NCBI GenBank assembly: GCA_030429345.1
Contig: JAUIFJ010000003.1
Span: 1 to 64,000 of the forward strand
Source: a bacterium
Lineage (GTDB): Bacteria > CAIWAD01
Direction: 5' to 3'
DNA length: 64,000 nucleotides
The translations under genes and the position numbers were made by a program. The notes under the pieces were generated by a model, which saw only the letters and a program-made list of their open reading frames with translations, was not told where the DNA came from and made no database searches. Shown here in pieces: positions 10,822-27,036 of this stretch (positions within the stretch are counted from its first letter, which is position 1; every line of letters starts with the position of its first letter).

Positions 10822-10832
10822 GGGGCTCCCGC

Positions 10833-11864: not shown

Positions 11865-11909
11865 GGTCTCTTCCTTGCTGCCGCGGGTGTCCGGCGGAAT
11901 GCCGATCGC

Positions 11910-12254
11910 CTAGAAGCTGAGTTTGTCGAGGGTGTTGTTCATCACGATGCCCTGGGCCAGGGTGATGCCGGCGCGCATCGCCGCCGCCACATGGACCGCC
12001 TCGGCCATCTCGTCGGGACTCAGGCCCAGCTCGAGGCCGGCCCGCGTATACGAATCGATGCAGTAGGGGCATTTCTCCCCGTGCGACACGGCCAGGGCGA
12101 TCAGCGCCTTCTCGCGCTTCGACAAGTGGCCGTCCTGCATTAGCGGGCCGTAGTACTTCATGAAGGCCTTCCAGGCCTCCGGGGCGCTGCGGCCGACCTG
12201 CTCGAACTTGGCCAGGTCTTCGGCAGCATAGTAGGTTTCCTTGTGTTCAGCCAT
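11910..12254 (-). CDS. Arsenosugar-associated carboxymuconolactone decarboxylase/AhpD-like protein
   Basis: 114 residues from ATG (MAEHKETYY), preceded by GAGG at six bases; a TTG at 12266 overlapping the upstream stop is an alternative. It is a small all-helical AhpD-fold protein with the redox motif KCPYCIDSYTR (Cys62, Cys65) and the usual distal histidines missing or shifted. Members of this subfamily regularly sit next to arsS and are named arsenosugar biosynthesis-associated peroxidase-like. The actual reaction is not established. Confidence 0.85.
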   Translation of the reverse strand: MAEHKETYYAAEDLAKFEQVGRSAPEAWKAFMKYYGPLMQDGHLSKREKALIALAVSHGEKCPYCIDSYTRAGLELGLSPDEMAEAVHVAAAMRAGITLAQGIVMNNTLDKLSF

Positions 12255-12262
12255 CTCCATCC

Positions 12263-12874
12263 TCAAGGTTTCGATTCCTTCAGCCAGCGTTCCCAGTCAC
12301 TCATGTGATCCACGTCGGGCAGGCAGCGCAGCTCCTGCCAGCTCAACCCGGCCCGTTCCAGGGAGCGGCGTGTATCTTCAGCCACCATCTCCCCGCCCCA
12401 ACAGGTCGACGGAAAGAGGGCCGGGTGGGGCGTTTGTGCTCCAATGCACCAGTAGCCGCCGTCCTCGGCGGAGCCGATGACGGCATCGTGTTCCTGCAGG
12501 GCAGCCAGTCCCCGCAGCAGGTCCCCGCTCGTGATCCAGGGGCAGTCGGCGCCGATCAGCAGTTGTGTTCCGGCGCCGCGCAGCGCCCCCTGCTCAAGAA
12601 TGTGCGCCATGCGCTGCCCCAGATCGCCCGGCGGCTGCTCCTCGCCCGGAAGCGCCTTGGGGGGCAGATCCAGGCTCCAGTCCGGATCCCCCCGGCCGCA
12701 CCAGTGTACTCGCCAGGGGACCGGCAGGGACTGCAGGGTGGCCAGGCAATGGCCCAGCAGCCGGCGGTAGATGGCCAGGGCACTCTGCTCCCCGCACTCG
12801 GCGGCCAGGCGCGTCTTCACCGCGCCCCTTTCCGGCCGGCGGGCCAGCAGGTGGATCACGGCCTCAGCGCCCAT
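12263..12874 (-). CDS. TIGR04282-type glycosyltransferase (DUF2064) of the arsenosugar cluster
   Basis: 203 residues. It is a GT-A-like fold of the DUF2064 family, with an N-terminal RRPERGAVKTRLA nucleotide-binding loop, IGADCPWITSGDLL holding the acidic metal site, and AEDGGYWCIGA. This group co-occurs with ArsS and is predicted to process the sugar moiety of arsenosugars. Its start overlaps the DUF547 gene by 11 bp, and its stop is just 8 bp before the next start. The substrate is inferred only from context. Confidence 0.85.
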   Translation of the reverse strand: MGAEAVIHLLARRPERGAVKTRLAAECGEQSALAIYRRLLGHCLATLQSLPVPWRVHWCGRGDPDWSLDLPPKALPGEEQPPGDLGQRMAHILEQGALRGAGTQLLIGADCPWITSGDLLRGLAALQEHDAVIGSAEDGGYWCIGAQTPHPALFPSTCWGGEMVAEDTRRSLERAGLSWQELRCLPDVDHMSDWERWLKESKP

Positions 12875-13646
12875 TGAGGCTCCAGTCGTAGTCGGTCCAG
12901 CGGATGGTGGCCCCGCCGGCTCCCGGCAGCCAGTCCTCGAGCCAGGCCTTCAGCCCCGCGCGATCCTTCGCGAAGTCCTCCCCGTACCACTTGAAGATCG
13001 GCGACAGGTAGAGCACGCCGTTCTCAAGGCGGTTCCTGCGGGGACTGTGTTGCAGGAAGACGCGCGCCTGCTCCTGCAGGTCCGCCTCCAGGGTTTCGCC
13101 GCGGTAGGCGCCGGAACGCAGCGGCGGGCAGCCGCGGGCCGCGCAGACCAGGGCGAAATGAATGCGCGGCTCAGTGTACCACACACGGATCATGTCGTGT
13201 TCCAGGCGGTCCAGGCTGATTTGCTCTCCGAAGAGCCCGACGACCTCCAGGGACCAGGGGCTGCGGAACCAGCCGCCGATGTCCCGGATCGTGGCCGGGC
13301 GGTCGTGATCCAGGATCAGCTCGAGGGTCGCGGCGTTGTAGACATTGATCAGGAAGGCCAGTTCCTCCTCGCGGGGCCAGGCCTCGAAGGCCTCGCGCGA
13401 CACGGCGGCCGCCGAGCGGAGCACCGCCTGGAGGCTTTCGCGTTCCTCCTCCAGCGCCTCGTAGTCCACTCGCCCCTGTTCCACATGCCTTGCCAGCAGG
13501 CGGTCCAGCTGCTCCAGGGCGTCGGTCCAGGTCTCGGCAGCCCGTCCCGCGGGGACAAGGCAAAGGCTCAGCGCGACCAGGCCGGCGGCGAACCATGCCG
13601 GTCGAAATGGCCGACGATCCGTTGATGGGCGAGCAGCGTGTTCCAG
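12864..13646 (-). CDS. Exported DUF547 protein, probable CTG start
   Basis: About 260 residues. A signal peptide (RRPFRPAWFAAGLVALSL, cleavage near GRAA) precedes a DUF547 domain with EELAFLINVYNAATLELIL, HFALVCAARGCPPLRS and FKWYGEDF. The domain resembles a thiol-protease-like fold with conserved Cys and His, but no activity is known. The frame has no ATG, GTG or TTG near the signal peptide. CTG at 13646 is preceded by GGGAGAAGGG, an excellent ribosome site, and gives a normal N-terminus. The gene therefore starts 79 bp inside the upstream glycosyltransferase. DUF547 genes are frequent members of arsenosugar clusters. Confidence 0.8.
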   Translation of the reverse strand: MEHAARPSTDRRPFRPAWFAAGLVALSLCLVPAGRAAETWTDALEQLDRLLARHVEQGRVDYEALEEERESLQAVLRSAAAVSREAFEAWPREEELAFLINVYNAATLELILDHDRPATIRDIGGWFRSPWSLEVVGLFGEQISLDRLEHDMIRVWYTEPRIHFALVCAARGCPPLRSGAYRGETLEADLQEQARVFLQHSPRRNRLENGVLYLSPIFKWYGEDFAKDRAGLKAWLEDWLPGAGGATIRWTDYDWSLNGR

Positions 13647-14233
13647 ATTCCCTTCTCCCGGTAGCGCCGCGGGTCCGTATACACCGGTTCCCGCAGCAGG
13701 TGCAGGCGCCGCCCTTCGCGGCGCAGTCGATCGACGAGCCACAGGTCCTCCAGGTAGGGCCAGGGCGGAAAGCCGCCCAGCTGCTCCAGCGTGGAGGCGC
13801 GCACCGCCAGGGCCTGGTCGCCGTAGGGGCGGCGCCGCAGGCGGCTGCGCCAGTTCCCCCCCCAGGCCACAAGGGCCATTGCCCAGCCGCCCTTCTCGTA
13901 GGCCAGGCGGAAGGCGCTGGCCTCGACCTCCGGGCGGGAAAAGGCCCGGCGCAGCAGTTCCGGCGCGCGCTGGGGCGGCCTCGTGTCCGCGTGCAGCATC
14001 CAGAGGATCTCGCCCCGCGCCTCGCGGCGCGCCGCCTCCAGCTGCAGCCCGCGCCCCTTCGGCGACTGGATCACGCGCCAGCCCGCTCTTTCGGCAAGCT
14101 CCGGGCTTCCGTCGCGGCTGCCGCCGTCGGCGAGCAGGATCTCCTCCAGCCCTTGCATCTGCTCCAACCGCGGCCGAAGGCGTTCGAGCGCGGCGCGCTC
14201 GTTCAGCAGGGGGATCAGCAGGCTGATCTTCAT
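13568..14233 (-). CDS. TIGR04283-type glycosyltransferase of the arsenosugar cluster
   Basis: 221 residues beginning MKISLLIPLLNERAALERL. A GT2 fold with EILLADGGSRDGSPELA, the metal site LWMLHADTRPP and AVRASTLEQLGGFPPWPYLED defines the small family that accompanies ArsS. Start and upstream stop overlap by four bases (ATGA). The 3' end overlaps the DUF547 gene by 79 bp. It is predicted to build the glycosyl part of an arsenosugar or to act on a lipid-linked form; this is context-based. Confidence 0.87.
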   Translation of the reverse strand: MKISLLIPLLNERAALERLRPRLEQMQGLEEILLADGGSRDGSPELAERAGWRVIQSPKGRGLQLEAARREARGEILWMLHADTRPPQRAPELLRRAFSRPEVEASAFRLAYEKGGWAMALVAWGGNWRSRLRRRPYGDQALAVRASTLEQLGGFPPWPYLEDLWLVDRLRREGRRLHLLREPVYTDPRRYREKGIWNTLLAHQRIVGHFDRHGSPPAWSR

Positions 14234-15726
14234 CCGCGACGGATCCAGGCCCGCAGCAGGCGGGCGATTCCCGGCTTGAGGCGTGCGCGCATCCACTGGT
14301 CTCCCGCTCGGCGGAAGGCTTCCCCCAGGGTCGGGTAGGGCAGCACCAGGCCGGAAAGCCGCGAGAGTTTCTCCTTCCGTGAGACAAGAAGCGCCGCCGC
14401 CGCCAGCAGCTCGCCGGCGTGATCGGCGACGATGCGCAGGCCTCGCACGCGCCCCTTGCCGTCGTGGATCACCTTCAGGTAGCCCTGCCCCCGGTCGAGG
14501 ATCGCGCGGTCCAGGCCATCGAAGGGGATCCGGATCTCTCCCGCCTTCCGGTCCCGGCGGCGCAGCTCGCCCAGCCCGGCGCCGATGCCGGCCGCTTCCG
14601 GCTGGGTATAGGTGCACCAGGGGATCGGCAGGCGGCGGTGATCCACTCGCCCCCCGAAGAAGGCGTTGCGCACCACGGCGCGGGCCATGGCGTCGCCGGC
14701 ATGGGTGAACTGGGGTCCGCCGACCACGTCCCCGATGGCGTATACACGGCGATTGCTGCTGCGCATGCGGGCGTCGACGAGGATTTCCCCCCGCTGGCCG
14801 AGTTCGACGGCTCCCGCCGGGCAGTCCAGCGCTTCCGTGTTCGGCCGGCGGCCGACGGCCAGCAGCAGGCCGTCCGCCCGCCAGGAGTCGGTTTCGCCCG
14901 CCTGCTCCAGTTCGGCCCGGCAGCCCTCCTCGCCCGTGATCCAGGCGCGCAGGGTGCATGCCAGCCGCAGTTCCACGCCGTCGGCGCGCAGCTGCCGCTG
15001 CAGAATGCCGGCCGCCTCCTCCTCGTCGCGCGGCAGCAGGCGGTCGCCGGCCTCGACCAGGCAGACCGTGCTGCCCAGCCGGGCCGCGGCCTGGGCCAGT
15101 TCGCAGCCGATCGGGCCGCCCCCCAGCACGAGCAGGCGGCGCGGCAGGTCCTCCAGGGTGAAGAAGCTGTCGCTGGTGTATACAGTCGGCTGCTCCAGTC
15201 CGGGAATCCGCGGCACGACCGGCCGCGCCCCGCTCGCCAGGAAGGCCCGACGAAAGTCCAGCAGCGCCTCCCCGACGGCGAATCGGCTCTCCCCCGCGAA
15301 GCGCGCGCTGCCGAAGTATACATCGACCCCCTTGGCCCGCAGGCCGGCGGCGCTGTCATGCGGGGCGATTTTCGCCCGCAGGCGCCGCATCTGCTCGAGT
15401 GCCGCTTGGGCGTCCGGCAGGCCGGGACCGTCATCGTCCTTCCAGTGGGCTCGGCGCGCCGTCGCGACCTGCCTGGCAGCATGCAGCAGGCCCTTGGATG
15501 GCACACAGCCCGTGTTGAGGCAATCCCCGCCGAGGAGCCCTTTCTCGACGAGGGCCGTGCGCGCTCCCAGCCCTGCGCAGATCGAGGCGCAGACCAGGCC
15601 CGCGGAACCGCCGCCGATGATCACGGCGTCATAGGAGCCGCCGGGCGGGTTCTGCCAGTCCGCCGGGCGGACCTCCTTGAGCAGGCTCTCGTCGTGGGCA
15701 TCCAGGGGCCCGAAGACCTCAGCCAT
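14230..15726 (-). CDS. MerA-like FAD-dependent pyridine nucleotide-disulfide oxidoreductase
   Basis: 498 residues. An FAD-binding IIGGGSAGLVCASICAGLG is followed by the redox pair in GGDCLNTGCVPSKG (Cys69, Cys74), an NAD(P) motif LVLGGGPIGCELAQAA, and VYAIGDVVGG. It lacks the N-terminal metal-binding domain of MerA and has no vicinal Cys pair at the C-terminus, so mercury reduction is unlikely. It overlaps the membrane-protein gene by 8 bp and the GT gene by 4 bp. A redox role in arsenosugar metabolism is inferred from this pairing, which recurs next to arsS in many genomes. Confidence 0.88.
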   Translation of the reverse strand: MAEVFGPLDAHDESLLKEVRPADWQNPPGGSYDAVIIGGGSAGLVCASICAGLGARTALVEKGLLGGDCLNTGCVPSKGLLHAARQVATARRAHWKDDDGPGLPDAQAALEQMRRLRAKIAPHDSAAGLRAKGVDVYFGSARFAGESRFAVGEALLDFRRAFLASGARPVVPRIPGLEQPTVYTSDSFFTLEDLPRRLLVLGGGPIGCELAQAAARLGSTVCLVEAGDRLLPRDEEEAAGILQRQLRADGVELRLACTLRAWITGEEGCRAELEQAGETDSWRADGLLLAVGRRPNTEALDCPAGAVELGQRGEILVDARMRSSNRRVYAIGDVVGGPQFTHAGDAMARAVVRNAFFGGRVDHRRLPIPWCTYTQPEAAGIGAGLGELRRRDRKAGEIRIPFDGLDRAILDRGQGYLKVIHDGKGRVRGLRIVADHAGELLAAAALLVSRKEKLSRLSGLVLPYPTLGEAFRRAGDQWMRARLKPGIARLLRAWIRRG

Positions 15727-16411
15727 GGGCGGCCTCCCCCTCGAAGCCCTTGTCGGCGAGCGCCCTGCGCGCCATCTTCGTGATACGCACGGTGACGAGC
15801 ACGGTCACTCCGAGACCGAGCCAGAAGAACCAGCGCTGCAGCCCCTCCCCCCCGGAAGGCTGCTCGCCCAGCTGGCGCAGGCTGCCGACCAGGGAACCGA
15901 TGTATACATAGAGCACGGTCGCCGGCAGCATGCCGATCCAGGAAGCGGCGACATAGCGGCCCAGGGGAGCCGCGCTCAGGCTGTAGAGGTAGTTCAGCAG
16001 GTTGAAGGGAAAGACCGGCGAAAGCCGCGTCAGCAGGATAATCTGGAAGGCCTGGCCCGCCAGGGCGCGGTCCAGGGCGGCCACCTTGCCGGAGGCCTGC
16101 AGGCGCTCTTCGACCCAGTCCCGCGCCAGGTAGCGTCCGGTGAGGAAGGCCGCGGTCGCTCCCAGGGTGCTGGCGACGGAGACCAGCGCCGTGCCGAGCA
16201 GCGGGCCCCAGATCACGCCCGCGCCCAGGGTCAGCAGCAGGCCCGGCACCAGCAGCACGGTCGCCCCCACATAGAGGGCGATGAAGACCCCCCAGCCCAG
16301 GGCGCCCCGGGCCTCGATCCAGCCCATGGCCGCCACGATCGGGTCCCCCCCCGTCCGGAAGGCCAGCAGCAGGACGATTCCCAGCAGGACCAGCCCGATC
16401 CCCTTCTTCAT
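15719..16411 (-). CDS. TVP38/TMEM64 (VTT/DedA-like) membrane protein
   Basis: 230 residues from ATG with GGGAG upstream (MKKGIGLVLLGIVLLLAF). Several hydrophobic segments surround a VTT-domain core: GLLLTLGAGVIWGPLLGTAL, ATAAFLTGRYLARD and RLSPVFPFNLLNYLYSL. Such proteins may flip lipids or export small solutes. It is the first gene of the arsenosugar cluster and overlaps the flavoprotein gene by 8 bp, a standing partnership in this type of cluster. An ATG ten codons upstream is possible but has a poorer context. Confidence 0.85.
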   Translation of the reverse strand: MKKGIGLVLLGIVLLLAFRTGGDPIVAAMGWIEARGALGWGVFIALYVGATVLLVPGLLLTLGAGVIWGPLLGTALVSVASTLGATAAFLTGRYLARDWVEERLQASGKVAALDRALAGQAFQIILLTRLSPVFPFNLLNYLYSLSAAPLGRYVAASWIGMLPATVLYVYIGSLVGSLRQLGEQPSGGEGLQRWFFWLGLGVTVLVTVRITKMARRALADKGFEGEAAHG

Positions 16412-16565
16412 GCATGCTCCCCGGCCGACATCAGGACGCACCGCGCGCCCCCGAAGTCGTGGAACCTGCCCACAGCCCGGGCGTTCCCCTGTGACCCTTT
16501 TGTTAGATTCGCGACAACCGCCTCCAGAGCGGGATCAGCCCGCACTCGTAGACAAGGACCCCTCG

Positions 16566-16970
16566 ATGATCGTGCTCAACAAGATCTTCCGCTTCTGCGC
16601 CGCCCACAAGTATTACAGTCCCGCCTTGAGCGAGCAGGAGAACCTGCGGGCCTTCGGGGACGATCTGCGGCTCCATGGCCACAACTATACTCTGGTCGTC
16701 AGCGTGAGCGGCCCGGTGAATCCGGACACCGGCTTCCTGGTCGATCTGCAGGCGCTGGTCCAGGTGGTGCAGGAGCATATTATCAACAAACTCGATCATT
16801 CCTGCATCCACGAGGACCTGGACTGGTTCCGCGATCGGCAACCCTCCACGGAAAACCTGGTGCAGTGGATCTGGCAGGAGCTGGAACCGCGCATGCCCGC
16901 CTGCAAGCTGGTCAAGCTGCGCCTCGAGGAAACCCCCACCATCTACACCGAATTCGACGGCTCGCTCTAG
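16566..16970 (+). CDS. 6-pyruvoyl-tetrahydropterin synthase/QueD-like protein lacking the usual catalytic Cys
   Basis: 134 residues; ATG follows AAGGA. The zinc ligands are present (AHKYY, His14, and LHGHNY, His37 and His39), as are LDHSCIHED and the substrate glutamate in EETPTIYTEF. The cysteine that normally lies in FGxC between the first and second ligand is Asp (AFGDD). A Cys occurs instead just before the first ligand (FRFCAAHKYY). It may therefore be a non-canonical pterin or queuosine-path enzyme, like other Cys-less members. It is the lone plus-strand gene here, divergent from the arsenosugar cluster. Confidence 0.8.
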   Translation: MIVLNKIFRFCAAHKYYSPALSEQENLRAFGDDLRLHGHNYTLVVSVSGPVNPDTGFLVDLQALVQVVQEHIINKLDHSCIHEDLDWFRDRQPSTENLVQWIWQELEPRMPACKLVKLRLEETPTIYTEFDGSL

Positions 16971-17009
16971 CCGCCAGTTCCTTTGCTCCAGCCCGGACAG
17001 GCAGAGAGA

Positions 17010-17037
17010 GTTCTCCCCCGCCGAGGCAGGGGAGAAC
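17010..17037. terminator. Hairpin between convergent genes
   Basis: GTTCTCCCC and GGGGAGAAC form a perfect 9-bp stem around a 10-nt loop. It sits between the stops of the QueD-like gene and the convergent choice-of-anchor V gene. There is no clear T-run on either side, so it may act as a bidirectional processing or weak termination signal. Confidence 0.5.
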
Positions 17038-17047
17038 AGGGATCGAT

Positions 17048-17782
17048 CTACTGGATCGGCAGGACCCTGTAATACATCATGCCGGGCAGCGCGGCCGTGG
17101 TATAGCCGGGAGCGGCGACCTGGTCGATGGCCAGGAATCCGCCCCAGGGCTGGCTGCTGGCGTGGATCTCGTAGCCCGCGGCCCCGGCCACCGGACTCCA
17201 GTCCAGGCTGATCTGCTGATTATCGGTCGAGATCGCGAGATCCGTCACCTCACCCAGAGGCTGCGCCATCGGAATACTCAACTGGGAGGTAAAGATGTAG
17301 TCTCCCTGGTTGCCGTTTGCGCCGTTGGCCGCGTTTCCGGCGGCGTAGAAGGTGACGTTGTCCGGCAGGTCCGGCCCCAGGGGCGCTGTCCAGAGCAGGC
17401 TCCAGCTGACGGGGCCGTCGGCTGTACCGTTCATCGTGCCGCTGGAGGTGTGCTTGACGTACTGCCTCCCTCCCGACGCGCTGAACTGGGTGTTCAGCGC
17501 GTCGGCGATCATGAAATCTCCGATGCCGAACTGCGTGATCTCGAAACCCCAGCGGGACTGACCGGGATCCTCGATTTCGACGCTCAGCTCGTAGGTCTGC
17601 CCCGCTTCCCAGGCGGCTGGTCCCTGCAGATTGAAACTGCCGTCTCCGCTGTTCAGGGGGAACTGGTTGTGGCACTGGGTACAAGTGGTCTCGCCGGGGG
17701 CGCCGGTACGCATGTCCTGGGGGCCGCCGGAATGAGCTATGGCGGCCAGCGGCAGCAGAAGCTGCCAGAGCAGGTGTTTCAT
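17048..17782 (-). CDS. Secreted choice-of-anchor V domain protein with a CxxCH motif
   Basis: 244 residues from ATG (MKHLLWQLLLPLAAIAHSGG), preceded by GGAG. After the signal peptide comes CTQCHN (Cys34, Cys37, His38), a possible single haem-c attachment site, in the TCTQCH context typical of choice-of-anchor V proteins. A beta-sandwich follows with WEAGQTYELSV and DLPDNVTFYAAGNAANGA. The C-terminal ~80 residues look like a fibronectin type III module (DWSPVAGAAGYEIHAS). No C-terminal sorting motif is visible. Function unknown; extracellular or periplasmic. The 297 bp up to the next gene hold no recognisable feature. Confidence 0.8.
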   Translation of the reverse strand: MKHLLWQLLLPLAAIAHSGGPQDMRTGAPGETTCTQCHNQFPLNSGDGSFNLQGPAAWEAGQTYELSVEIEDPGQSRWGFEITQFGIGDFMIADALNTQFSASGGRQYVKHTSSGTMNGTADGPVSWSLLWTAPLGPDLPDNVTFYAAGNAANGANGNQGDYIFTSQLSIPMAQPLGEVTDLAISTDNQQISLDWSPVAGAAGYEIHASSQPWGGFLAIDQVAAPGYTTAALPGMMYYRVLPIQ

Positions 17783-18079
17783 GATGTCTCCGCAATTGGC
17801 TGTGTGTGAGTCCAATCAAGCAAAGACCGTTCCAGTTTGCCGAGTGCCTGGCGAACTGCGGAATCCGGATCTTCGAAAAGGCTGCTACAGCAGAACAGGT
17901 TCTGTGACTGAAGGCTTTGCCTGCCCTGGCCAACGTGGACAAAGCTGCAGCAGAAGAGGTGGAGCATCGGTCCCGGCCAGAACTAGGCAGCAACAGAAAA
18001 CTGCAGACGATCGTAAGATCCAGCAGACACTGCTCAAATCCTCCTTTCCACTAAATCCTGCTTCCTGAAAGGCGGATAA

Positions 18080-19327
18080 ATGAGCGGAACCCCAATAGAG
18101 TGTGAGCACATGGAAACCTATATCGCACGGCAACCAATTCTGGATCCTGCACGACAGATTCAGGCTTACGAACTTCTATACCGCAACAGCAATCAAAACC
18201 GTTTCCCTCTCGAGGAAAACTCGCGAGCATCGGAAAGCATGCTCGAGCACGCGCTGATCCAGTTCGGCATTCCCTGGCTGGCCGCCCAACGGGATGTCTT
18301 CATCAACATTGACCGCGAGGTCCTGCTGGATGGCTCCTACCAGGACCTGCCGCCTGAACAGGTGGTGCTGGAACTGCTCGAGCATGTCGAAAGCGACGCC
18401 GAAGTCCTCGAGGCCTGCAAGAGGCTGAAGAGCCTGGGGTATCGCCTGGCGTTGGACGACTACACCTTTCATCCGGAAATGGACGAGCTGGTGCAGATCG
18501 CGGACATCATCAAGGTGGATCTGCGGGAAGGCGATGCCTGGAAAGATGGTGTGAAAGTGCAGCAGCTCCTGAATCGGGGCAAGACTCTTCTGGCCGAGAA
18601 AGTCGAGTGCCGATCGGAATTCGAACAGGCCTGCGCCCTGGGCTACACACGCTTCCAGGGCTTCTACTTCTCACGGCCTCAGATGATGCACAAACCTGAG
18701 TTGGGCGGCAATATCCTGGCCTGCACTCGCCTCCTGAGCGCCGTTTCCTGCCACCCCCTGGACCTGGACCATGTGGTGGAAATCATCTCCAGCGATCCGA
18801 CGCTTTCCTACAAACTGTTGCGTTATCTCAACTCCGCCGCCATGCGGCGCAACCAACCGATCTCGGATATCCATCGCGCCATTCTGCTGCTCGGGGACGC
18901 TCCTCTTCGCCGCTGGGCCGGGTTGGTCTCGCTGCGTGCCTTGAACCTGGAGAACCGCGAGGACCTCCTGCTGGCCAGCCTGACCCGGGCCAGCATGGGA
19001 GAAAGCCTGGCCCAGCAAACTCCCCGCCTGGCCGACCGCGCGCCCGAATTTTTCCTGTGCGGGCTGCTCAGCCTGTTGGATGCGCTGATGGATATCGAAA
19101 TGACGGACCTGCTTGAACAGTTGTCGCTGGAGAAGGAAATGAACGCCGCGCTGCTCGGCGGCTACGGCGAGCTGGGGCAGATGCTGCGCCTGGCCAGGGC
19201 CTACGAGGACGGGCATTGGCAGGAAATGGAAGAGGCGGGCAAGATCCTGGGTCTGGAGGCCTCGGTCTGCGGCGAGGCCTACCTGAAGGGGGTCCGCTGG
19301 GCGGAGAGCACGATCGCCGAGAGCTAG
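18080..19327 (+). CDS. EAL-HDOD signalling protein (YuxH/CdgJ type)
   Basis: 415 residues from ATG with AAAGGCGG upstream; an ATG ten codons later (METYIARQP) is also plausible. Residues ~12-210 form an EAL-like domain with YELLYRN in place of EALLR, LALDDYT and a reduced loop 6, so phosphodiesterase activity is doubtful. Residues ~215-400 form a HDOD domain (SSDPTLSYKLLRYLNSA and LLGDAPLRRWAGLVSL). Such proteins act as regulators by protein binding. The stop lies 4 bp from the stop of the convergent receiver-pyruvate kinase gene, with no terminator between. Confidence 0.9.
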   Translation: MSGTPIECEHMETYIARQPILDPARQIQAYELLYRNSNQNRFPLEENSRASESMLEHALIQFGIPWLAAQRDVFINIDREVLLDGSYQDLPPEQVVLELLEHVESDAEVLEACKRLKSLGYRLALDDYTFHPEMDELVQIADIIKVDLREGDAWKDGVKVQQLLNRGKTLLAEKVECRSEFEQACALGYTRFQGFYFSRPQMMHKPELGGNILACTRLLSAVSCHPLDLDHVVEIISSDPTLSYKLLRYLNSAAMRRNQPISDIHRAILLLGDAPLRRWAGLVSLRALNLENREDLLLASLTRASMGESLAQQTPRLADRAPEFFLCGLLSLLDALMDIEMTDLLEQLSLEKEMNAALLGGYGELGQMLRLARAYEDGHWQEMEEAGKILGLEASVCGEAYLKGVRWAESTIAES

Positions 19328-19331
19328 CCTT

Positions 19332-21101
19332 TCAGGCGCGCAGAAAGACCAGGCTGCCGAGCTGCCGGTAGGGCATGCTGGCGGAGGGCGCCGCCTCGAC
19401 CACGGCGACCAGGTCCCCGCATTCCACTGTTCCGTTGCCGCGCATTTCGGCCAGGGCCGCCTCGAGGCTGGCGACGAAACCGCGCCCGCCGGGAAGGATC
19501 ACCGGTGTGACACCGTGATACAGCTTGCTGCGGCGGGCGATGGCCAGGCTCTCGGTGACCAGCACCAGCCTGCCCTGGCGGTTCTGCTTGCTCAGGGTCG
19601 GCAGCAGTTCGCCCTGGGAGTCGATGACCATCGTCACCTTGCACTCGGGACTGCGCAGGGCGGCGAAGAGGCTGTGTTGCCAGCTTTCCGCGTTTTCCAG
19701 CGGCACGACGGGACCGGACCCCGCGTGGCTTTCGCTTTCGGAAATGATGCGACGCATGGTCTTGACCACCCGCACCGGGTCCTCGCCGACAGCAGTCTCT
19801 CCGCTGAGCATCAGGGCGTCGCTGCCTTCGCGGATGGCGACGGTCACATCGGTGACCTCGGCGCGCGTGGGGCGGGGATTGTGCGTCATCGACTCGAGCA
19901 TCTGCGTGGCGGTGATCACCGGCTTGCCCACGCGGGCGCAGCGTTCGAGGATGTCGCGCTGGATCCAGGGAACCCGCGAGGCGTCCAGCTCGACTCCCAT
20001 GTCGCCGCGGGCGATCATGATCCCGTCGGCCTCCGCGATCACCTCGTCGATGAGCTCGACGGCTTCCGGCTTCTCCACCTTGGCGATCACCTGGGCCTGG
20101 CTGCCGTTCTCCCTCAGGGTGTCGCGCACCTGTCTTACATCGTCCGGATGTCTCACGAAACTGATGGCGACGAAATCCACGTCGTTCCGCGCCGCCCATT
20201 CCATGTCACGGCGGTCCTTCTCCGTGACACTCGGCAGGCTGAGGCTCGTTTCGGGAAGGTTCATGCCCTTGTGAGACTTGAGCAGGCCGCCCTGGATCAC
20301 GCGGCAGCGCGCCTCCTCCGCGGAAGCCTCCAGCACTTCCAGCTCCAGCAGGCCGTCATCGAGCAGCACCGGGTCCCCCGGTTGAAGGTCCGCCAGCAGC
20401 TCAGGCGTGTTGGTGGAGATGCGCTCGCTGTTGCCGACGACCGCCTCGGCCAGCACACGCAGGTCCGCTCCGTTCTTCAGCTCGACTCCGCCCTGCTCCA
20501 TGTCCCCGCAGCGCAGCTTCGGTCCGCAGAGATCCTGCAGGATCGCCAGCGGCTTGCCCCACTTGCGCTCGGCGGCGCGCAGCTCGCGCAGGTGATGGTC
20601 GTGGTCGTCGTGGCTGCCATGGCTGAAATTGAGGCGTGCCACATCCATGCCGGCCAGCATCATGCGACCAATGGTATCACGATCGCGACAGCTGGGGCCG
20701 ATGGTGCAGACGATGCGGGCCAGCACCTGGCTGCGGGAGTGGTGACGGGGCAGGTCGCTGTTGACCAGCCGGAGCAGTTCGGCGGGATCCTCCTCCTTGC
20801 TGACGATGGCGAGGACCGAATTGCGCTCCGGCAAATCACGGCGTATCTCGTCTTCCTGCAGCGAACTGTGCACGATCACCGGCAGGGTCGGCGCGACGAT
20901 GGTCAGGGCCTCGATGCACTTGTAGCCGTCCCAGCCCGGCATGCGAATATCGGTGATCAGCAGATCCACCTGCCGGCTGCCGGCGCGCAGAAAGGCCTGG
21001 TGACCGCTGGAAACCGCGTCTACCGTATGTCCCGCCTTTTCCAGCTGCCTCTTGAGCAGCGCGAGACTCGTCGCATTGTCTTCCGCCAGCAGGATCCGCA
21101 T
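19332..21101 (-). CDS. Response-regulator receiver domain fused to pyruvate kinase
   Basis: 589 residues in one uninterrupted frame. Residues 1-~118 are a complete CheY-like receiver: acidic pair Glu7-Asp8 (LLAEDN), phospho-acceptor Asp51 (LLITDIRMPGWDG), switch Ser79/80 (VIVHSS) and Lys102 (VSKEED). A short linker leads at ~126 to a full-length pyruvate kinase: ARIVCTIGPSC, ARLNFSHGSHDD, QDLCGPKLR, a B domain, AKVEKPEAVELIDEVI, DGIMIARGDMGVELD, KPVITATQMLESM and PTRAEVTDVT, then a C-terminal regulatory domain. No internal stop or ribosome site separates the halves. Pyruvate kinase makes ATP and pyruvate from PEP; phosphorylation of the receiver could gate it. A kinase partner is not adjacent. 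Confidence 0.93.
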   Translation of the reverse strand: MRILLAEDNATSLALLKRQLEKAGHTVDAVSSGHQAFLRAGSRQVDLLITDIRMPGWDGYKCIEALTIVAPTLPVIVHSSLQEDEIRRDLPERNSVLAIVSKEEDPAELLRLVNSDLPRHHSRSQVLARIVCTIGPSCRDRDTIGRMMLAGMDVARLNFSHGSHDDHDHHLRELRAAERKWGKPLAILQDLCGPKLRCGDMEQGGVELKNGADLRVLAEAVVGNSERISTNTPELLADLQPGDPVLLDDGLLELEVLEASAEEARCRVIQGGLLKSHKGMNLPETSLSLPSVTEKDRRDMEWAARNDVDFVAISFVRHPDDVRQVRDTLRENGSQAQVIAKVEKPEAVELIDEVIAEADGIMIARGDMGVELDASRVPWIQRDILERCARVGKPVITATQMLESMTHNPRPTRAEVTDVTVAIREGSDALMLSGETAVGEDPVRVVKTMRRIISESESHAGSGPVVPLENAESWQHSLFAALRSPECKVTMVIDSQGELLPTLSKQNRQGRLVLVTESLAIARRSKLYHGVTPVILPGGRGFVASLEAALAEMRGNGTVECGDLVAVVEAAPSASMPYRQLGSLVFLRA

Positions 21102-21755
21102 GGTCGCTCTCCCGAATGTGCCCGATGATTACAGCCAAGATAGGGCTTCGGGGGGTGGGAAGGTGGGGAGGAACACCATGGAAGGGGTCGGTCACGGAAG
21201 GGAAGGGAGCGCTGGGACACGGAAAGGAAGGGGGGGCGGACACAAGGGGTCGGGTCGGACAGACACAAGGGGTCGGACACTGTGTCGGGGCCGGAGCCGG
21301 ACCAGCCGGACCACCCGGAGCAAAAGGCCGGAGGCTGTGCCGCGCAAGAAGCCATGAAAGGGGGCAAACAAAGGGTCAAACACTGTGTCTGACCCTTTAC
21401 CAGGCCAGGGGCCAGACCATCTAGAGACCAACCAGTAGAAATAGCCAAGCCTTGCCTCAAAACTGAATCGGGGCCGGAAGTAGGCGAGGAGAAAGTCGAA
21501 GTAAACCTTCAGCGAATGCGGAAGATGCCTGATCCTGTGCACTTGGACGGAAATTGGCCAGAGTTTGGACTGATTGAAGCGACCAGGCAACCCGCAAAGA
21601 ATAGATAGTCACCCACCCCGACACGGGGCAGTGCGCTCATACGCCTGGAAAGTCAATCGTCAGAACGACGAAGAGGAAGAACTTGTTGTGGTCACTGGCG
21701 TTTCCGCTTGCTCGCAGCAGGATTGCCAGGACGAAGAACTACCAGCTACTCGAAA
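21102..21755. other. Repeat-rich intergenic region left of the RAYT gene
   Basis: About 650 bp with no credible gene. 21160-21330 is strongly purine-skewed, with repeated (A)CACGGAA/GGAAGGG and CACAAGGGGTCGG words, a degenerate relative of the palindrome at 21371. The rest (21420-21755) shows no obvious structure. Frames here lack starts, ribosome sites and family resemblance. Confidence 0.55.
21371..21399. repeat. REP-like palindrome, left flank of the RAYT gene
   Basis: AAAGGGTCAAACAC and a near-complement GTGTCTGACCCTTT form a long inverted repeat centred on ACACTGTGT. A close relative at 22543-22575 lies on the other side of the transposase gene. GGGGTCTGACACTGTGT-type palindromes are commonly seen beside Y1 transposases. 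Confidence 0.7.
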
Positions 21756-22379
21756 CTACAAGCCCTGATTGCGGAAACCAGGCAGTACAAGGGATTGAGA
21801 AGACGCCCTGCGGAAGAAAAGGGACTGCCCTTGGGCGCGTAGTACAATTTCCCTGTACGCCGCACGGCGTTTCTTTCTTCGCGGATCCAATGATTTGTAT
21901 ACGGGAGTTAAATGAAGGAAAGAGACTTGTGAATCCCCAAGGGCCAGTCTTCGATGACTCGACCACAAGTATTCTTCTGGACGGTTGCACAACCCGGCGC
22001 GAACTGGATTCAGATCAATATATGCCATGCAGTTCAGCAAATAGGATTCGTCATCGATGAGAACAACCCGGAAACGTTTTCCCCAGACTTTTCCCGATAC
22101 ACGCAAGTGGGAATTCAAGAATTGACCATAGGCGCCATTTGCATACTGCATCATCCCCGAGATGCTGCCACCGGGCATTTGCGATACGACGAGGTGAATG
22201 TGATTCGTCATGAGCGCAAAAGCATGGATGCGGCACTTTTTCTTCTCGGCGGCAATTTTCAGATAGTGCAAGTACCGACTGCGATCAATATCTGTGAAGA
22301 AGAGTTCACGCTTGGCATCACCCTGTTGAGTTAGGTGATAGTACTGGTTGTCGAGGATGTTTCGCGGTTTTCTTGGCAT
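21756..22379 (-). CDS. REP-associated tyrosine transposase (RAYT, Y1/IS200-like)
   Basis: 207 residues from ATG (MPRKPRNILDNQYYHLTQQG) preceded by GGAG. The HUH motif is NHIHLVV, the catalytic tyrosine is in NGAYGQFLN, and the family block KVWGKRFRVVLIDDESYLL, then YIDLNPVRAGL and YLWSSH follow. RAYTs are single-domain nucleases that cut and paste REP palindromes rather than themselves. The gene is intact and flanked on both sides by related palindromes (21371, 22543). Its base composition is poorer in GC than its surroundings, which suggests acquisition. Confidence 0.9.
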   Translation of the reverse strand: MPRKPRNILDNQYYHLTQQGDAKRELFFTDIDRSRYLHYLKIAAEKKKCRIHAFALMTNHIHLVVSQMPGGSISGMMQYANGAYGQFLNSHLRVSGKVWGKRFRVVLIDDESYLLNCMAYIDLNPVRAGLCNRPEEYLWSSHRRLALGDSQVSFLHLTPVYKSLDPRRKKRRAAYREIVLRAQGQSLFFRRASSQSLVLPGFRNQGL

Positions 22380-22542
22380 GTTGGTGTTCTCCGTTTCCTG
22401 GATGCAGGAAACTGCAGAAGAAAATCTACAAAGTATACAACGAACTTCCCGTTTTCCGTGATACTCTAACACAGTGTGCAGATATATGGACACAATGAGG
22501 TTTTATGACCAGTGCCCATATCCTCGTATGGCACCTCCTTCG

Positions 22543-22575
22543 ACACGGGGTCTGACACTGTGTTTGACCCCGTGT
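22543..22575. repeat. REP-like palindrome, right flank of the RAYT gene
   Basis: ACACGGGGTCTGACAC is followed by GTGTTTGACCCCGTGT, an almost perfect 16-bp-arm inverted repeat. It is the best preserved member of the palindrome family around the transposase gene and a likely substrate. Confidence 0.75.
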
Positions 22576-22679
22576 CCGGCACCTCGCCCGCCCCCGGGTC
22601 CGACCCCGCGTCCCCGCGACCCCGTGGTATCCACCCTGTCCGACTGCGCCCTTGTCCCTATACGGTAGCGTAGAGTACT

Positions 22680-22870
22680 GTAGCGCTTATTCCCTCCAAA
22701 ACGGAGGAAGGCGCGGCCTGGAAGACCGCGCCCTCGCCATTCGCCCATGAAGAGGCGTCCTTGGCGACCCTGGGAAAGCGGACGCTCTCCCTGCCCTGGG
22801 ACCGCCCACCTTGCCTGGGGGGCAAGGTGCGGACAGGAGTAGGACATACAATCTGTATGCCAAAAACGAC
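22680..22870. other. Intergenic region with several strong stems, possible structured RNA
   Basis: The stretch between the RAYT locus and the amidotransferase gene contains CCTCC-AAAAC-GGAGG, GCGCGG...CCGCGC, GCGTCC...GGACGC and CCTTGCC-TGGGG-GGCAAGG in succession. It lacks a believable coding frame. I could not match it to RNase P, tmRNA, SRP or 6S RNA by eye. The strand is undetermined. It may be a structured RNA or another group of REP-like hairpins. Confidence 0.3.
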
Positions 22871-22995
22871 AGGCACCCCAAAGGACTGTTATCATTCACC
22901 TTGGACAAATTGGAACACTGTTCCCGCATCCCCCTGAATTGGGCATGTCCACAAGAGTGGTGCAACTGGACGAGAGAGGTGGACTGAACAGGAGG

Positions 22996-23718
22996 CTACA
23001 GCACAAGATCCAGGAAGCGCTTCAGCGTCCCTTTCAGATCCGGAGTATCGCGGAAGGCATCCAGGACCTGCCGGCGCTTGTCCGGATCCGTGCCCACATA
23101 GGCATCCAGGTAGCGCCGCAGGCGAATCAGCATGTCCTCCTTGCCCAGTTCGGGATGGAACTGGGTGCCCCATATCGGCCGACCCGGAACATGCAGGGCC
23201 TGGAAGGGAATGCGCTTCGAGGAAGCCAGCGATACCACTCCCCGCGGCAGCACCGTGGCCCGATCCTTCCGCCCCAGCTGGGCCGGAAAGCTCTCGGGCA
23301 ACTCGCCCAGGAGAGGATCCCGGCGGCCTTCCGGACTCAGGCGGATCGTGTAGGTGCCGACCTCCCGGGAGGGCGGATCATGCACCACGCGTCCTCCCAG
23401 GGCCTGGACCAGCGCCTGGAACCCGTAGCACGAGGCGAAGAGGGGCTTTCCTTCGGCAACCACTGCGCGCAGGAAGGACAAGGTCTGCTCCTGGTGGGGC
23501 AGATTTGCCAGGGAGATGTAGAAGTCGCCGCTTCCGCCGAAGAACAGGGCCCGGTAGCGCATCCATTCCCGCGCCGAGGGCGGACCGTTCAACAGGTCAT
23601 GCAGATCGATGCAGAAGAGAGGCACACCGGCTTCGCGTGCGAAACACTGGCGCTCCTCTTCGATGGCCGGATCTCCGGCCACCCGCGCCTGCAGCAATAG
23701 AAAGTCGCCTGTGCTCAC
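22996..23718 (-). CDS. Class I glutamine amidotransferase-like protein
   Basis: 240 residues from a GTG at 23718. It is a stand-alone GATase domain resembling the GuaA glutaminase half: nucleophile in FASCYGFQAL (Cys97), catalytic FHPEL with the His and Glu near residue 190, and oxyanion-loop FFGGSGDFYISL. The partner synthase is absent, as for other free-standing 'GMP synthase-like' amidotransferases whose substrates are unknown. It is followed by its own 270-bp repeat-rich gap. Confidence 0.85.
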   Translation of the reverse strand: MSTGDFLLLQARVAGDPAIEEERQCFAREAGVPLFCIDLHDLLNGPPSAREWMRYRALFFGGSGDFYISLANLPHQEQTLSFLRAVVAEGKPLFASCYGFQALVQALGGRVVHDPPSREVGTYTIRLSPEGRRDPLLGELPESFPAQLGRKDRATVLPRGVVSLASSKRIPFQALHVPGRPIWGTQFHPELGKEDMLIRLRRYLDAYVGTDPDKRRQVLDAFRDTPDLKGTLKRFLDLVL

Positions 23719-23744
23719 TCGATTGGAATCCCGGTTGCTGAAAA

Positions 23745-23778
23745 TGGGAGAAGAAAGGGGCGGTCAATGACCGCCCCT
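23745..23778 (-). terminator. Rho-independent terminator after tRNA-Glu
   Basis: On the minus strand AGGGGCGGTCATTGACCGCCCCT is followed by TTCTTCTCCC. The 10-bp GC-rich stem begins 4 bp after the tRNA 3' end and is followed by a pyrimidine run. Confidence 0.75.
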
Positions 23779-23782
23779 GAGG

Positions 23783-23855
23783 TACCGCGTACGGGACTCG
23801 AACCCGTGTTACCGGCGTGAGAGGCCAGCGTCCTAGGCCACTAGACGAACGCGGC
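23783..23855 (-). tRNA. tRNA-Glu (anticodon CTC)
   Basis: A 73-nt cloverleaf reads on the minus strand. The acceptor stem GCCGCGT pairs with ACGCGGT (first pair G-U). The D loop is TCTAGTGGCCTAGGA, the anticodon loop CCTCTCA gives CTC, and the T arm is CGGGTTCGAGTCCCG. The CCA end is not encoded. It is transcribed alone and terminated at once. Confidence 0.93.
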
Positions 23856-23912
23856 AGATGAACGCCGAATATAGTCTGCCCGCCGACAAGAAGCAACAGG
23901 CAGCGCCGGGTC

Positions 23913-26537
23913 CTACTCGAAGCTCTTCTGCGGAGAGAAGAGGAAATAGTCGAACAACACTTCCGGACGGGCCGTGCCCAGCAGTTTCAGCTGCTCGTCC
24001 TCCGCCGTCTGCATGGCATCGGCAGCCATTTCCGCGCGGGTCTCGTCCAGCTGCAGGGTCGCCATGCCCCAGAAGAGCTCGAAGAACTGGGCCAGCGAGA
24101 ACTCCGGGAAATACTCCTGCACCTTCGCGTCCGCGGGCAGTTCGGCCTGGCGGCGTGCTTCCTCGATGGCCTCCTCAAGGCCGCCGATGGAATCGGCCAG
24201 GTCCTTCTCGATGGCCGTCGGGCCGGACCAGACCCGGCCTTCGGCCATGGCATGCACCTGCTCCCATTCCAGCTCGCGGCCCTCGGCGACCTTGTCGACG
24301 AAATCATCGTAGTAATGACGGATCAGGCCGCGGATCTCGCGGTCCTGCTGCTCGTTGAGCGGACGGCCCATGACCGGAATCGTCGGCAGGCGCATTTCCG
24401 CCTCCCCGGCCTGCAGATTGAGGCCGAAGGGCAGCGCGGCGCCACCGAGCGGCTGCTTGCCGGCCCAGACTCCGTCCTGGCGGAAACCGCTCTTCTCCAT
24501 CAGCCCCTTGTCGAAGAAGGCGCCGGCAGCCACGCCGATGCTTCCGGTAATCGTCAGGGGGGAGGTCAGGATCTCGTCCCCGCTCATGGAGAAATAGTAT
24601 CCGCCGCTGGCGGCCAGGAAGCCCTGTGTGACAATCAAGGGCTTCTCCTCCTTGAGCAGCTGCATCTCGCGCCAGACCAGGTCGGAGGCATAGCCGCTGC
24701 CGCCCGGCGAATCGATGTGCAACACGACGGCCTGGATGCGATCGTTCTTGCGCGCCGCCTTGAGCTGCTTGATGACGGTCTTGTGACCGATCACGAAAGG
24801 GCCGATGGAGCTGCCGGCGCGGATCGGTCCGCTGGCGTAGATCACGGCGATCTCGCGATCGTCCATCCACTCGCGGCGCGTATACTCGGGTGTCAGCGCA
24901 CGGATCGACACCAGGTGATCCCCGCCCTCGTCGCCGAAGGAGATCTTCAGGCCCTCGCCTTCCTCCTCCTCGTCCTCATCCAGGCGATTGCAGACCCAGG
25001 CCTTGACCCGGTCGTTGTAGAGCATGGTGTCGATGATGCCCAGCTCCTGCAGGCGGTCCTCGTTGAGGAAGTAGGAGCCCATCAGCTCGTTCATCTGCGT
25101 GTCACTCAGGCCGTAGCCCTCGGCGATGGTGGCGTCAATGTGTTCGCGCAGTTCGCGGAAGACGCGGCCGACATTCTCGCGCACTTCGTCGGACATGCGA
25201 TCGGCGGCGAAGGGTTCGCCGGCGCCCTTCCAGGCGCCCACGTTCCAGCGGGAGAACTCGATGCCGGCGCGTTCGAGGGCCGACTTGAAGTACAGGCGCT
25301 CCCCGCCCATGGGTAATATGATCTCGGCCGCGCCGGTGGGAAGAATGGCACGGCGGTCGGCGACGCTCGCCAGGTAGAGATCGAAGAGTTTCAGGTTGTG
25401 GCTGTAATACACGATCTCGCGGCCGCTGTCCTTGAACTCCTGCAGCCGGCGGCGGATCTCCCAGAGCAGGGTCGGATCGGCGGAAAAGCCTGGGCGTCGA
25501 TCAATGAACACGCCCTTGACGCGGGGATCCTCCTGGATGGCGTCCATCTGCTCGAGGAAATCCGGCAGGCGGAACTTGTCTCCGGAAATCAGCCAGCTGT
25601 ACTCGCCGGCCATGCCGTCCAGCTTGAGGTGCGCGTAGGTCTTCCGGGCGGCGCGAAAGCGCGGCGGCTGGTTGAAGAGCGCGCTGCTCAGTTCCACGTG
25701 CATCATGTTGTTGGTCATGTTGGAGCCGGTGGAGGTCTGGCTGAGTTCGCTTTCGGAAGACAGGATGCCCACTCCCAGGCCGCCCAACTGCAGGTCGGCG
25801 CTGAAAGCGAAGTCCTCCAGGTTGACGTTCTGCTTTGCACTCAGGCTCAGGTAGTTCAGCGGGGACCACTGGGCGCCCAGCCAGACGCGGTCGCCATGGA
25901 ATTCCGCGTTGCGGTCCCAGGAGGCATCGGCGGAAAGGCTCAGCGAGCCAAGACCGCGCACGGCAGGCAGGGGCCGCACGGCAATGCCGCCTTCGCCCCA
26001 GTAACGGTTGCCGTGAAAGTCCTTGCTGAGAGCATTGTTGGCCTTGCCCAGAATGAAGTGATGCACCAGGCCCAGGCTGAATTGAGGCATCTGGCGCCCG
26101 AAGGGAGCGAAGCGATCCAGGCTGCTGAGGAGGAATTCGTCCGGTCCCTGACCGTTGGGCAGATTGCCGCGGTTCCAGACATAGGCGAAGCCGGACTGGT
26201 GTTCGCGGTCTCCGAAGCCCATGCCCAGCCGATACTGGTTGAGGAACTGCGAGCCGCTTTCCCGGTGCTTGACCCCGAAGACCAGGCCGCCCAGCTTGGA
26301 GTAGAAGGCCCAATCCTCGGCGCGGGACTCGCCGCTTTCCTCGATCGAGCCGAAGTAGCCGAAGCGGGCGACTTCCGGATCGAAGCCGGCGGCTGCCGGG
26401 TTGGCGAAAGCGCCGACGGCGCTCTCGTCCGTGGCCAGGCTGTGGGTGTGCTGATCATCGAGCACAGACTGCAGAGGGCTGGCCTGTGCAGAGCAGATGC
26501 CGCACAGCAGGCCGCAGAGGGCGAGGAACTGGATCAT
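23913..26537 (-). CDS. SppA-like S49 protease fused to an N-terminal beta-barrel-like domain
   Basis: 874 residues from ATG (MIQFLALCGLLCGICSAQAS) with GGAAG upstream. The signal peptide is followed by ~280 residues resembling a PorV/UPF0164-type outer-membrane barrel (FANPAAAGF, alternating FGYFGSIEESGESRAEDWAF-like strands, many SLSL segments). From ~300 come two SppA repeats with the catalytic lysine in GAWKGAGEPF (Lys437) and the serine in LAASGGYYF (Ser644), a Ser/Lys dyad as in E. coli SppA. An acidic insert (DEDEEEEGEG) separates the repeats. SppA normally degrades signal peptides at the inner membrane; the barrel fusion points to the outer membrane or periplasm. Confidence 0.87.
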   Translation of the reverse strand: MIQFLALCGLLCGICSAQASPLQSVLDDQHTHSLATDESAVGAFANPAAAGFDPEVARFGYFGSIEESGESRAEDWAFYSKLGGLVFGVKHRESGSQFLNQYRLGMGFGDREHQSGFAYVWNRGNLPNGQGPDEFLLSSLDRFAPFGRQMPQFSLGLVHHFILGKANNALSKDFHGNRYWGEGGIAVRPLPAVRGLGSLSLSADASWDRNAEFHGDRVWLGAQWSPLNYLSLSAKQNVNLEDFAFSADLQLGGLGVGILSSESELSQTSTGSNMTNNMMHVELSSALFNQPPRFRAARKTYAHLKLDGMAGEYSWLISGDKFRLPDFLEQMDAIQEDPRVKGVFIDRRPGFSADPTLLWEIRRRLQEFKDSGREIVYYSHNLKLFDLYLASVADRRAILPTGAAEIILPMGGERLYFKSALERAGIEFSRWNVGAWKGAGEPFAADRMSDEVRENVGRVFRELREHIDATIAEGYGLSDTQMNELMGSYFLNEDRLQELGIIDTMLYNDRVKAWVCNRLDEDEEEEGEGLKISFGDEGGDHLVSIRALTPEYTRREWMDDREIAVIYASGPIRAGSSIGPFVIGHKTVIKQLKAARKNDRIQAVVLHIDSPGGSGYASDLVWREMQLLKEEKPLIVTQGFLAASGGYYFSMSGDEILTSPLTITGSIGVAAGAFFDKGLMEKSGFRQDGVWAGKQPLGGAALPFGLNLQAGEAEMRLPTIPVMGRPLNEQQDREIRGLIRHYYDDFVDKVAEGRELEWEQVHAMAEGRVWSGPTAIEKDLADSIGGLEEAIEEARRQAELPADAKVQEYFPEFSLAQFFELFWGMATLQLDETRAEMAADAMQTAEDEQLKLLGTARPEVLFDYFLFSPQKSFE

Positions 26538-26753
26538 TGGGGTGCTTCCTTCGGATGGATGCAGGTTCAGGTTTTCGATGCCGGCGACAGTGCACCGAAG
26601 CATGCGCCTTGGACAGCAGGGAAACCGGAAGGTTTCCGCCGTCGAGGGTCGGCGGGAAAGATATCAATTGAAGACGGTGTCAGGAGGGCGCCAAAAAGAG
26701 AAAGACCCATCACGAAAGGACGGGTCTCAATCTTGATCAACTGCCAGAACGGG

Positions 26754-26864
26754 CTAGAAGACAATCACTCCTGCGATCATAAAGAGCAGGAAGAGCGGTG
26801 AACTGACCAGCAGGTCCGCCCTTGTCTTCTTCAGCAAAGCCGCGACTTTACTTACCTGGTTCAT
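26754..26864 (-). CDS. 36-residue single-pass membrane peptide
   Basis: ATG at 26864 is preceded by GGGGGAAGC, an ideal ribosome site. The product MNQVSKVAALLKKTRADLLV ends in one hydrophobic helix (SPLFLLFMIAGVIVF) at the extreme C-terminus, with positive charges before it. The gene stands alone between the SppA-like and YfhO-like genes. I know no family for it. The strong start and clean helix make it likelier than chance, but short frames are easily spurious. Confidence 0.5.
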   Translation of the reverse strand: MNQVSKVAALLKKTRADLLVSSPLFLLFMIAGVIVF

Positions 26865-27036
26865 GCTTCCCCCTTTGTGAACAGCCTGGCTCCGACACGC
26901 CGGAACCTTTGTCTGAATACGCTCGTGGTAAGGCAAGCTCCGTGCCATTTCAACCGATTCTTCCATCTACCTGTTTTTCATTGACCTGGACATGAGAACG
27001 AAGTAGGCATCGGGCTTCGAACGAGACCAATTCCGG

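Follow-up and report, generated by a model that had tools for sequence, protein, structure and literature searches.

A CheY-like receiver fused to pyruvate kinase in one protein: a putative response regulator with a glycolytic enzyme as its output

The window analyzed here, a stretch of bacterial DNA of 64,000 nucleotides, encodes a single protein in which a CheY-like receiver is joined by a short linker to a full pyruvate kinase. Based on the anatomy of this protein and on its conservation in a group of sulfur-cycling bacteria, we propose, with a probability of about 0.7, that the fusion is a response regulator that has pyruvate kinase as its output and is under the phospho-control of an unlinked histidine kinase. 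Pyruvate kinase is a textbook case of small-molecule allostery and, if our proposal is true, the last step of glycolysis would in these cells be placed under direct two-component control, without transcription. The fusion is apparently the only pyruvate kinase of the window organism, so that the cell would depend on it.

Architecture of the fusion protein

The open reading frame of 589 residues (minus strand, 21101..19332) has an ATG start, lies in a stop-to-stop frame of 598 residues and contains no internal stops, which confirms the claim in the preliminary description that receiver and pyruvate kinase are encoded in one frame. A hidden stop between the two halves, raised there as a possible flaw, was looked for in the window and there is none at the junction. 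The parts of the gene and two flanking genes are as follows.

19332..21101, minus strand: whole fusion gene, 589 residues, with the stop codon at 19332-19334; full-length homologues exist
20757..21101, minus strand: CheY-like receiver, residues 1-115 (E7, D8, D51, S79, K102), from PF00072, predicted strands and helices (E2-6 to H106-113) and conservation
20949..20951, minus strand: codon of Asp51, the predicted phospho-acceptor, which is D in 30 of the 31 fusions examined
20721..20756, minus strand: linker, residues 116-127, poorly conserved in the alignment, with model pLDDT below 50 at 119-123
19725..20720, minus strand: pyruvate kinase A/B domains, residues 128-459, catalytic residues present, from PF00224 at residues 129-445
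19335..19685, minus strand: pyruvate kinase C domain, residues 473-589, diverged and without the effector-loop motif, from a weak PF02887 match and a fold match over 121-588
18080-19327: gene for an EAL-HDOD protein, tail to tail with the fusion gene
21756-22493: gene for a Y1 (IS200-like) transposase, upstream of the fusion gene

The Response_reg profile (PF00072) matches residues 3-113 (E 5.1e-17, 62.5 bits against a cut-off of 30.2), and the receiver residues that had been named at the outset (E7, D8, D51, S79/S80, and K102) are all found in the protein. The PK profile (PF00224) matches residues 129-445 (E 1.4e-111, 373.2 bits against a cut-off of 30) and the NCBIfam pyruvate kinase equivalog TIGR01064 is passed with 462.6 bits against 306.4. 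These matches, together with the catalytic residues that are kept and a fold alignment that includes the C domain, bear out the earlier view that a full pyruvate kinase follows the short linker. When solved structures were searched by sequence, the best matching stretch starts at residue 121-129 among the 60 matches listed. The predicted model has a mean pLDDT of 89.6 and a pTM of 0.81, although five unlinked receiver rows in its input were misaligned into the enzyme region and its receiver half rests on three fusion rows; the sole segment below 50 is the linker at 119-123. Residues 1-113 of the model have the receiver-like alternation of strands and helices, and residues from about 121 to 588 align with pyruvate kinase structures with a best Z of 53.5, many of the rows covering 460-467 residues at 1.9-3.6 Å. 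The PK_C profile (PF02887) reaches only 23.8 bits at residues 487-573, below its cut-off of 28. Nevertheless, the model indicates that the C domain is present, and since the fold aligns over 121-588, C domain included, the weak score would reflect divergence and not absence.

Distribution of the fusion

The preliminary description suggested a search for the full domain order across genomes and held that absence of the fusion from all relatives would count against it. Full-length relatives with an identical domain order do exist, for example 32 of them in the class of Desulfogranum marinum; the three genomes from the window genome's own family do lack the fusion, but the absence does not extend to that class, which is distant from the window genome and in which 35 of 257 genomes have the fusion. 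Because the same fusion is present in these 35 genomes, it is not an assembly error, nor is it a chance joining. Specifically, at E≤1e-103 there are matches in 37 of the 257 genomes. In 32 of these the match spans the entire protein, in three (G114, G165, and G113) it starts at residue 1 and stops at or close to the end of a contig, in one (G110) it is confined to residues 243-591, and in one (G078) it is to a plain pyruvate kinase. One of the 32 full-length fusions, that of G292, is interrupted in its enzyme part by an in-frame TAG. Those relatives that were compared with the window protein are 47-49% identical to it.

A scan of named genomes by exact peptide patterns, in which 80 loci were kept of 87 confirmed, yielded full-length fusions in Desulfogranum marinum DSM 2058 and in a Desulfobulbus MAG (47-48% identity), and its silence elsewhere means little because it found two fusions against 35 in one class. 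The window phylum was covered by five genomes, one of them the window genome itself. Among 386 sampled relatives of the window genome there are four matches at E≤1e-103, three of them to the enzyme only, and the window genome alone has the fusion. The 395 genomes drawn evenly from the D. marinum phylum gave five matches at E≤1e-112, all of them already known members of the class. Across the genomes sampled, no lineage other than the D. marinum class and that of the window shows the fusion, with the proviso that a more diverged fusion could be missed at limits of 1e-103 and 1e-112. In 178 loci with an enzyme reading frame, the rows in which over 60 residues precede the enzyme were inspected by eye and revealed no further receiver (L071 being mostly masked), and among the 20 plasmid matches listed of a total of 206, none begins before query residue 86. 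Three candidates were rejected: L134 (query 1-459), a pyruvate kinase that stands alone, the receiver being encoded by a gene of its own about 0.9 kb downstream, and L082 (query 8-459) and L113 (75-460), which are both stand-alone enzymes.

The same-family genomes G001-G003 are without the fusion, which is what one would expect if the window gene were an assembly or sequencing artefact or if its contig came from a contaminating organism, a reading to which we give next to no weight. The same junction occurs in 30 other loci, one of which is from the cultured D. marinum DSM 2058. In addition, the SppA-like protein encoded nearby (23916-26603) has matches of 44-46% in G001-G003 that cover most of the chain, whereas four fusion-bearing genomes of the D. 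marinum class match it at only 30-33%, and over part; the match to the more distant G004 is also only 30%, over part. A T9SS sorting tail on the same contig likewise argues against contamination. Hence, we reject both artefact and contamination, given the shared junction and the grouping of the SppA-like neighbor with G001-G003 and, judged by these sequence comparisons, the contig belongs to its genome. The protein encoded at 34536-35975 of the window is FGE-sulfatase-like and has a Por secretion (T9SS) sorting tail, which hints that the host may belong toward the Bacteroidota side of the tree.

Evolutionary history

In a careful tree of the enzyme part, the bootstrap of which had not fully settled, the 33 fusions (32 from the class and that of the window) form one clade with support of 100/100. 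A quick tree gives the fusion clade a support of 99 and places the window protein as its first branch, with the other 32 grouped at 98 (SH-aLRT). The tree comprised 114 of 162 prepared rows, including all 33 prepared fusion rows, and the truncated row of G292 was left out. The pyruvate kinases of the three genomes from the same family as the window genome are stand-alone enzymes and group together (100/99) elsewhere in the tree, that of G002 having an in-frame TAG within the match. As these relatives have a different, stand-alone enzyme, the window gene was probably transferred in, and the simplest reading would be that one fusion event was followed by transfer into the window lineage and by loss of the old enzyme. 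In the window genome, which is 98% complete, the fusion is the only PF00224 match. The PPDK_N matches in that genome are two long proteins of 131 and 123 bits, and in four class genomes the top match of each scores 397-410 bits; given its low PPDK_N scores, the window genome may be without a classical PEP synthase or PPDK.

Catalytic residues and the missing effector-loop motif

Sequence conservation in the enzyme half was assessed in 31 aligned fusions, which are 30 class loci (of 36 in the class) and the window protein. Residues R156, N158, S160, H161, D190, K195, R197, K341, and E343 are identical in all 31, and D367 and T399 are identical in all 30 that cover them, one truncated row falling short. 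The catalytic roles of R156, K341, E343, D367, T399, and others were assigned via the numbering of the rabbit enzyme. With its catalytic residues kept, the fusion is predicted to have pyruvate kinase activity. The residue at position 195 is Lys in 31 of 31 fusions; this is the position of Glu117 in the rabbit enzyme, at which K+-independent pyruvate kinases carry Lys. The fusion therefore has the lysine that marks the K+-independent type, and independence from K+ is predicted for it.

Ordinary pyruvate kinases carry in the C domain an SGx[ST]-type loop that is presumably the phosphate-binding effector loop. In a first count this motif was present in 56 of 71 ordinary enzymes versus none of 29 fusions, duplicates, L140/L141 (an odd enzyme), and L008 having been left out. 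A recount with the strict pattern, for which L008 was restored, the duplicate L174 removed, and two fusions added, gave 57 of 71 versus none of 31, and a looser pattern gave 64 of 71 versus three of 31. It should be noted that the strict pattern is also missed by 14-15 of the 71 ordinary enzymes. The fusion family thus appears to be without the effector-loop motif of ordinary pyruvate kinases, and we read this as a sign that control of the enzyme may have been rewired.

Predicted phosphorylation site and conserved face of the receiver

The set of receiver residues that consists of two acids, Asp51, Ser/Thr79, and Lys102 is intact in 30 of the 31 fusions. The proline that follows K102 is missing in the window protein and present in the other 30. 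Judged by these residues, the receiver looks competent for phosphorylation, and it also appears to be under purifying selection. In seven chosen close pairs, one with a saturated dS (2.9) and one with an undefined value for the C domain, dN/dS is 0.08-0.24 for the receiver and 0.03-0.12 for the A/B domains, and in six of the seven the receiver is the faster-evolving half. Hence, both halves are under purifying selection in the pairs compared. The one exception to the intact set is the fusion of G112 (L151), which has N51, V79, and E102 in its receiver and yet keeps the architecture, W57, and K61, and from this we conclude that phosphorylation is not needed everywhere. The L151 fusion is a natural control for phosphorylation-independent function.

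The mean entropy of the receiver in the fusions is 0.83 in helix 2 and 0.60 in helix 3, and it is 2.29, 1.99, and 2.24 in helix 4, strand 5, and helix 5, which form a usual output face of receivers. Relative entropy was compared with that of 40 other receivers, and is 0.42 in the fusions versus 1.00 for helix 3, 0.58 versus 1.03 for helix 2, and 1.61, 1.40, and 1.57 versus 1.09, 1.05, and 1.25 for helix 4, strand 5, and helix 5, a comparison that is indicative only because these controls are unrelated paralogues from the fetched loci, selected with a profile that was built from the receivers of the fusions. Residues Q35, W57, K61, and A65 are invariant in the 31 fusions, and at the positions of W57 and K61 the 40 other receivers have mostly M/L and E; a fusion outside the 31, that of G165, has Q at position 61. 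We propose that helices 2 and 3 form a family-specific face that would dock on the enzyme.

Genomic neighborhood and candidate partner kinases

The only histidine kinase found in the 64 kb window (9712-12072) lies 7.3 kb from the fusion with genes between. Neighborhoods were scanned in 20 class genomes, G117 among them, and in the window, using a kinase profile built from four kinases (three from the loci under study and one from the window); six of the 21 contain a histidine kinase within the stretch covered, and the other 15 gave none. The window is counted among the 15 because its scanned stretch (11000-29500) cut the gene at 9712-12072, and in the neighborhoods of G212 and G191 only about 0.3 kb lies downstream of the fusion before the contig ends. 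Just one of the 21, that of G290, has a histidine kinase adjacent on the same strand, with hybrid histidine kinases directly upstream of the fusion, 37 bp away. Since a kinase is in the stretch in six of 21 cases and directly upstream in one of 21, the partner kinase would mostly be unlinked. The G290 locus (L220:8824-15177) holds, upstream of the fusion and on its strand, two hybrid kinases, one with GAF/PAS and one with multiple PAS domains and each with a receiver, as well as a receiver-HD protein, and these are candidate partners of the G290 fusion.

Ten neighboring proteins were scanned with Pfam, and no general conserved gene neighborhood emerged that could serve as a functional clue. 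G212, G186, and G178 share an upstream gene order that resembles rho-prfA-prmC-murA, the genes having been named by eye from their first residues. Upstream of the window gene (21260-22610), imperfect repeats and palindromes with a GACACTGTGTC-like core flank the Y1 transposase on both sides, and the whole resembles REP elements with their transposase.

Proposed mechanism and alternatives

We now put forward a hypothetical mechanism for the fusion in which Asp51 is most likely phosphorylated by a histidine kinase that is encoded elsewhere. The switch in the receiver would be passed to the enzyme, probably via the face formed by helices 2 and 3 and along the short linker that leads to the N-terminal end of the barrel, and would change the activity of the enzyme, taking over from the site at which small-molecule effectors act on ordinary pyruvate kinases. 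Our guess, which follows the example of CheB and leans only just toward this direction, is that the enzyme is held back as long as the receiver is unphosphorylated and is set free upon phosphorylation. Our case for phosphorylation of Asp51, for what it does to the enzyme and in which direction, for the docking face, and for the kinase partner rests on anatomy and conservation; the arrival of the gene by horizontal transfer is inferred as well. The suggestion in the preliminary description that phosphorylation may directly switch the last step of glycolysis is partly supported. For a host that mostly makes sugar from small acids, a pyruvate kinase that could be quickly shut against its PEP-forming enzymes would presumably be of advantage.

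Receivers can use acetyl phosphate, and such a small phosphodonor, and not a dedicated histidine kinase, might mainly charge the receiver, in which case the fusion would be a metabolic feedback device that runs from pyruvate to acetyl-CoA, acetyl phosphate, the receiver, and back to pyruvate kinase. We consider this unlikely: the 15 neighborhoods without a kinase and the phospho-site that is intact in 30 of 31 fusions are consistent with it, but the two hybrid histidine kinases directly upstream in G290 argue for a dedicated partner, and orphan response regulators with unlinked kinases are common. A self-contained switch, in which the receiver is charged without a histidine kinase, either by acetyl phosphate or by PEP via the enzyme half, so that the only pyruvate kinase of the cell reads the state of its own pathway, is a long shot that we place last among the roles considered for the receiver. 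If true, however, pathway state would be read in Asp phosphorylation, a chemical language so far reserved for signaling.

Information could also flow in reverse, with the enzyme as a sensor of PEP/ADP and the receiver as the output, acting as a phosphate sink or binding another protein. Of the 36 fusion-bearing genomes in the class (35 with a visible receiver and G110), 27 have at least two PF00224 matches, some of which are pieces of one gene, and the fusion need therefore not carry flux in these genomes, as such a sensor would allow. Nevertheless, the catalytic residues are kept in all sequences that cover them, no PF00224 match other than the fusion exists in the window genome or in the other nine of the 36, and the variability of the receiver is among its highest in helix 4, strand 5, and helix 5, so that we hold a reverse flow to be very unlikely. 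Slightly less credible again is a receiver that serves as a non-phosphorylated structural or oligomerization module. The G112 protein, which keeps everything but its phospho-site, fits such a module, and yet 30 of 31 fusions keep the full set of phosphorylation residues, which is beyond what structure alone should need. We therefore continue to favor a response regulator whose output is pyruvate kinase and whose histidine kinase is unlinked.

Relation to known systems

The fusion shares with pyruvate kinases (TIGR01064; PF00224 and PK_C) the fold over residues 121-588 (Z about 53), the catalytic residues, and a score above the TIGR01064 cut-off. It differs from the ordinary enzymes in its added N-terminal receiver and a C domain that scores below the cut-off, and the fusions are without the effector-loop motif (none of 31) and stand in a clade of their own. 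In CheB, an N-terminal receiver directly controls a methylesterase in the same chain, and the fusion has the same arrangement, with control being predicted; its output is a glycolytic enzyme whereas that of CheB is a chemotaxis esterase.

Receivers joined to metabolic enzymes, namely PPDK, thioredoxin reductase, and a glycosyltransferase, are described in the portion of PMC5847659 that was available. The fusion resembles those response regulators in combining a receiver with a standard metabolic enzyme and in its narrow phyletic distribution, and differs in its enzyme, pyruvate kinase, of which that portion makes no mention. The RpfC receiver bound to RpfF is a case of a receiver that acts directly on a metabolic enzyme (PMC9864630, in the part available), with two proteins where there is one here, and with a different enzyme. 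The available text of the literature searched, including PMC2890560, PMC3739170, PMC2700814, and PMC9864630, contains no description of a receiver-pyruvate kinase, although older surveys cited in PMC5847659 may list one. A receiver-metabolic enzyme fusion is thus of a published kind, and its pyruvate kinase version was not found described in these sources. That the fusion is kept in a sulfur-cycling group of bacteria suggests that some cells can switch sugar metabolism directly by signal instead of via gene expression. The idea can be tested at once since D. marinum DSM 2058 is a cultured host, and the fusion offers a ready-made signal-controlled enzyme for engineering.

Other pyruvate kinases in fusion-bearing genomes

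One of the class genomes, G173, has three PF00224 matches, the first of which is the fusion. The D. sulfexigens genome paper, in the part available, lists three pyruvate kinases (UWK_00304, 00318, and 00709) and remarks on pathways as probably reversed. Some fusion-bearing genomes also contain an odd pyruvate kinase-like family, represented by G061:C220:117106-118449 and by like genes in G108, G110, and G117, with open frames of 657-698 residues in which the pyruvate kinase barrel is matched in two pieces.
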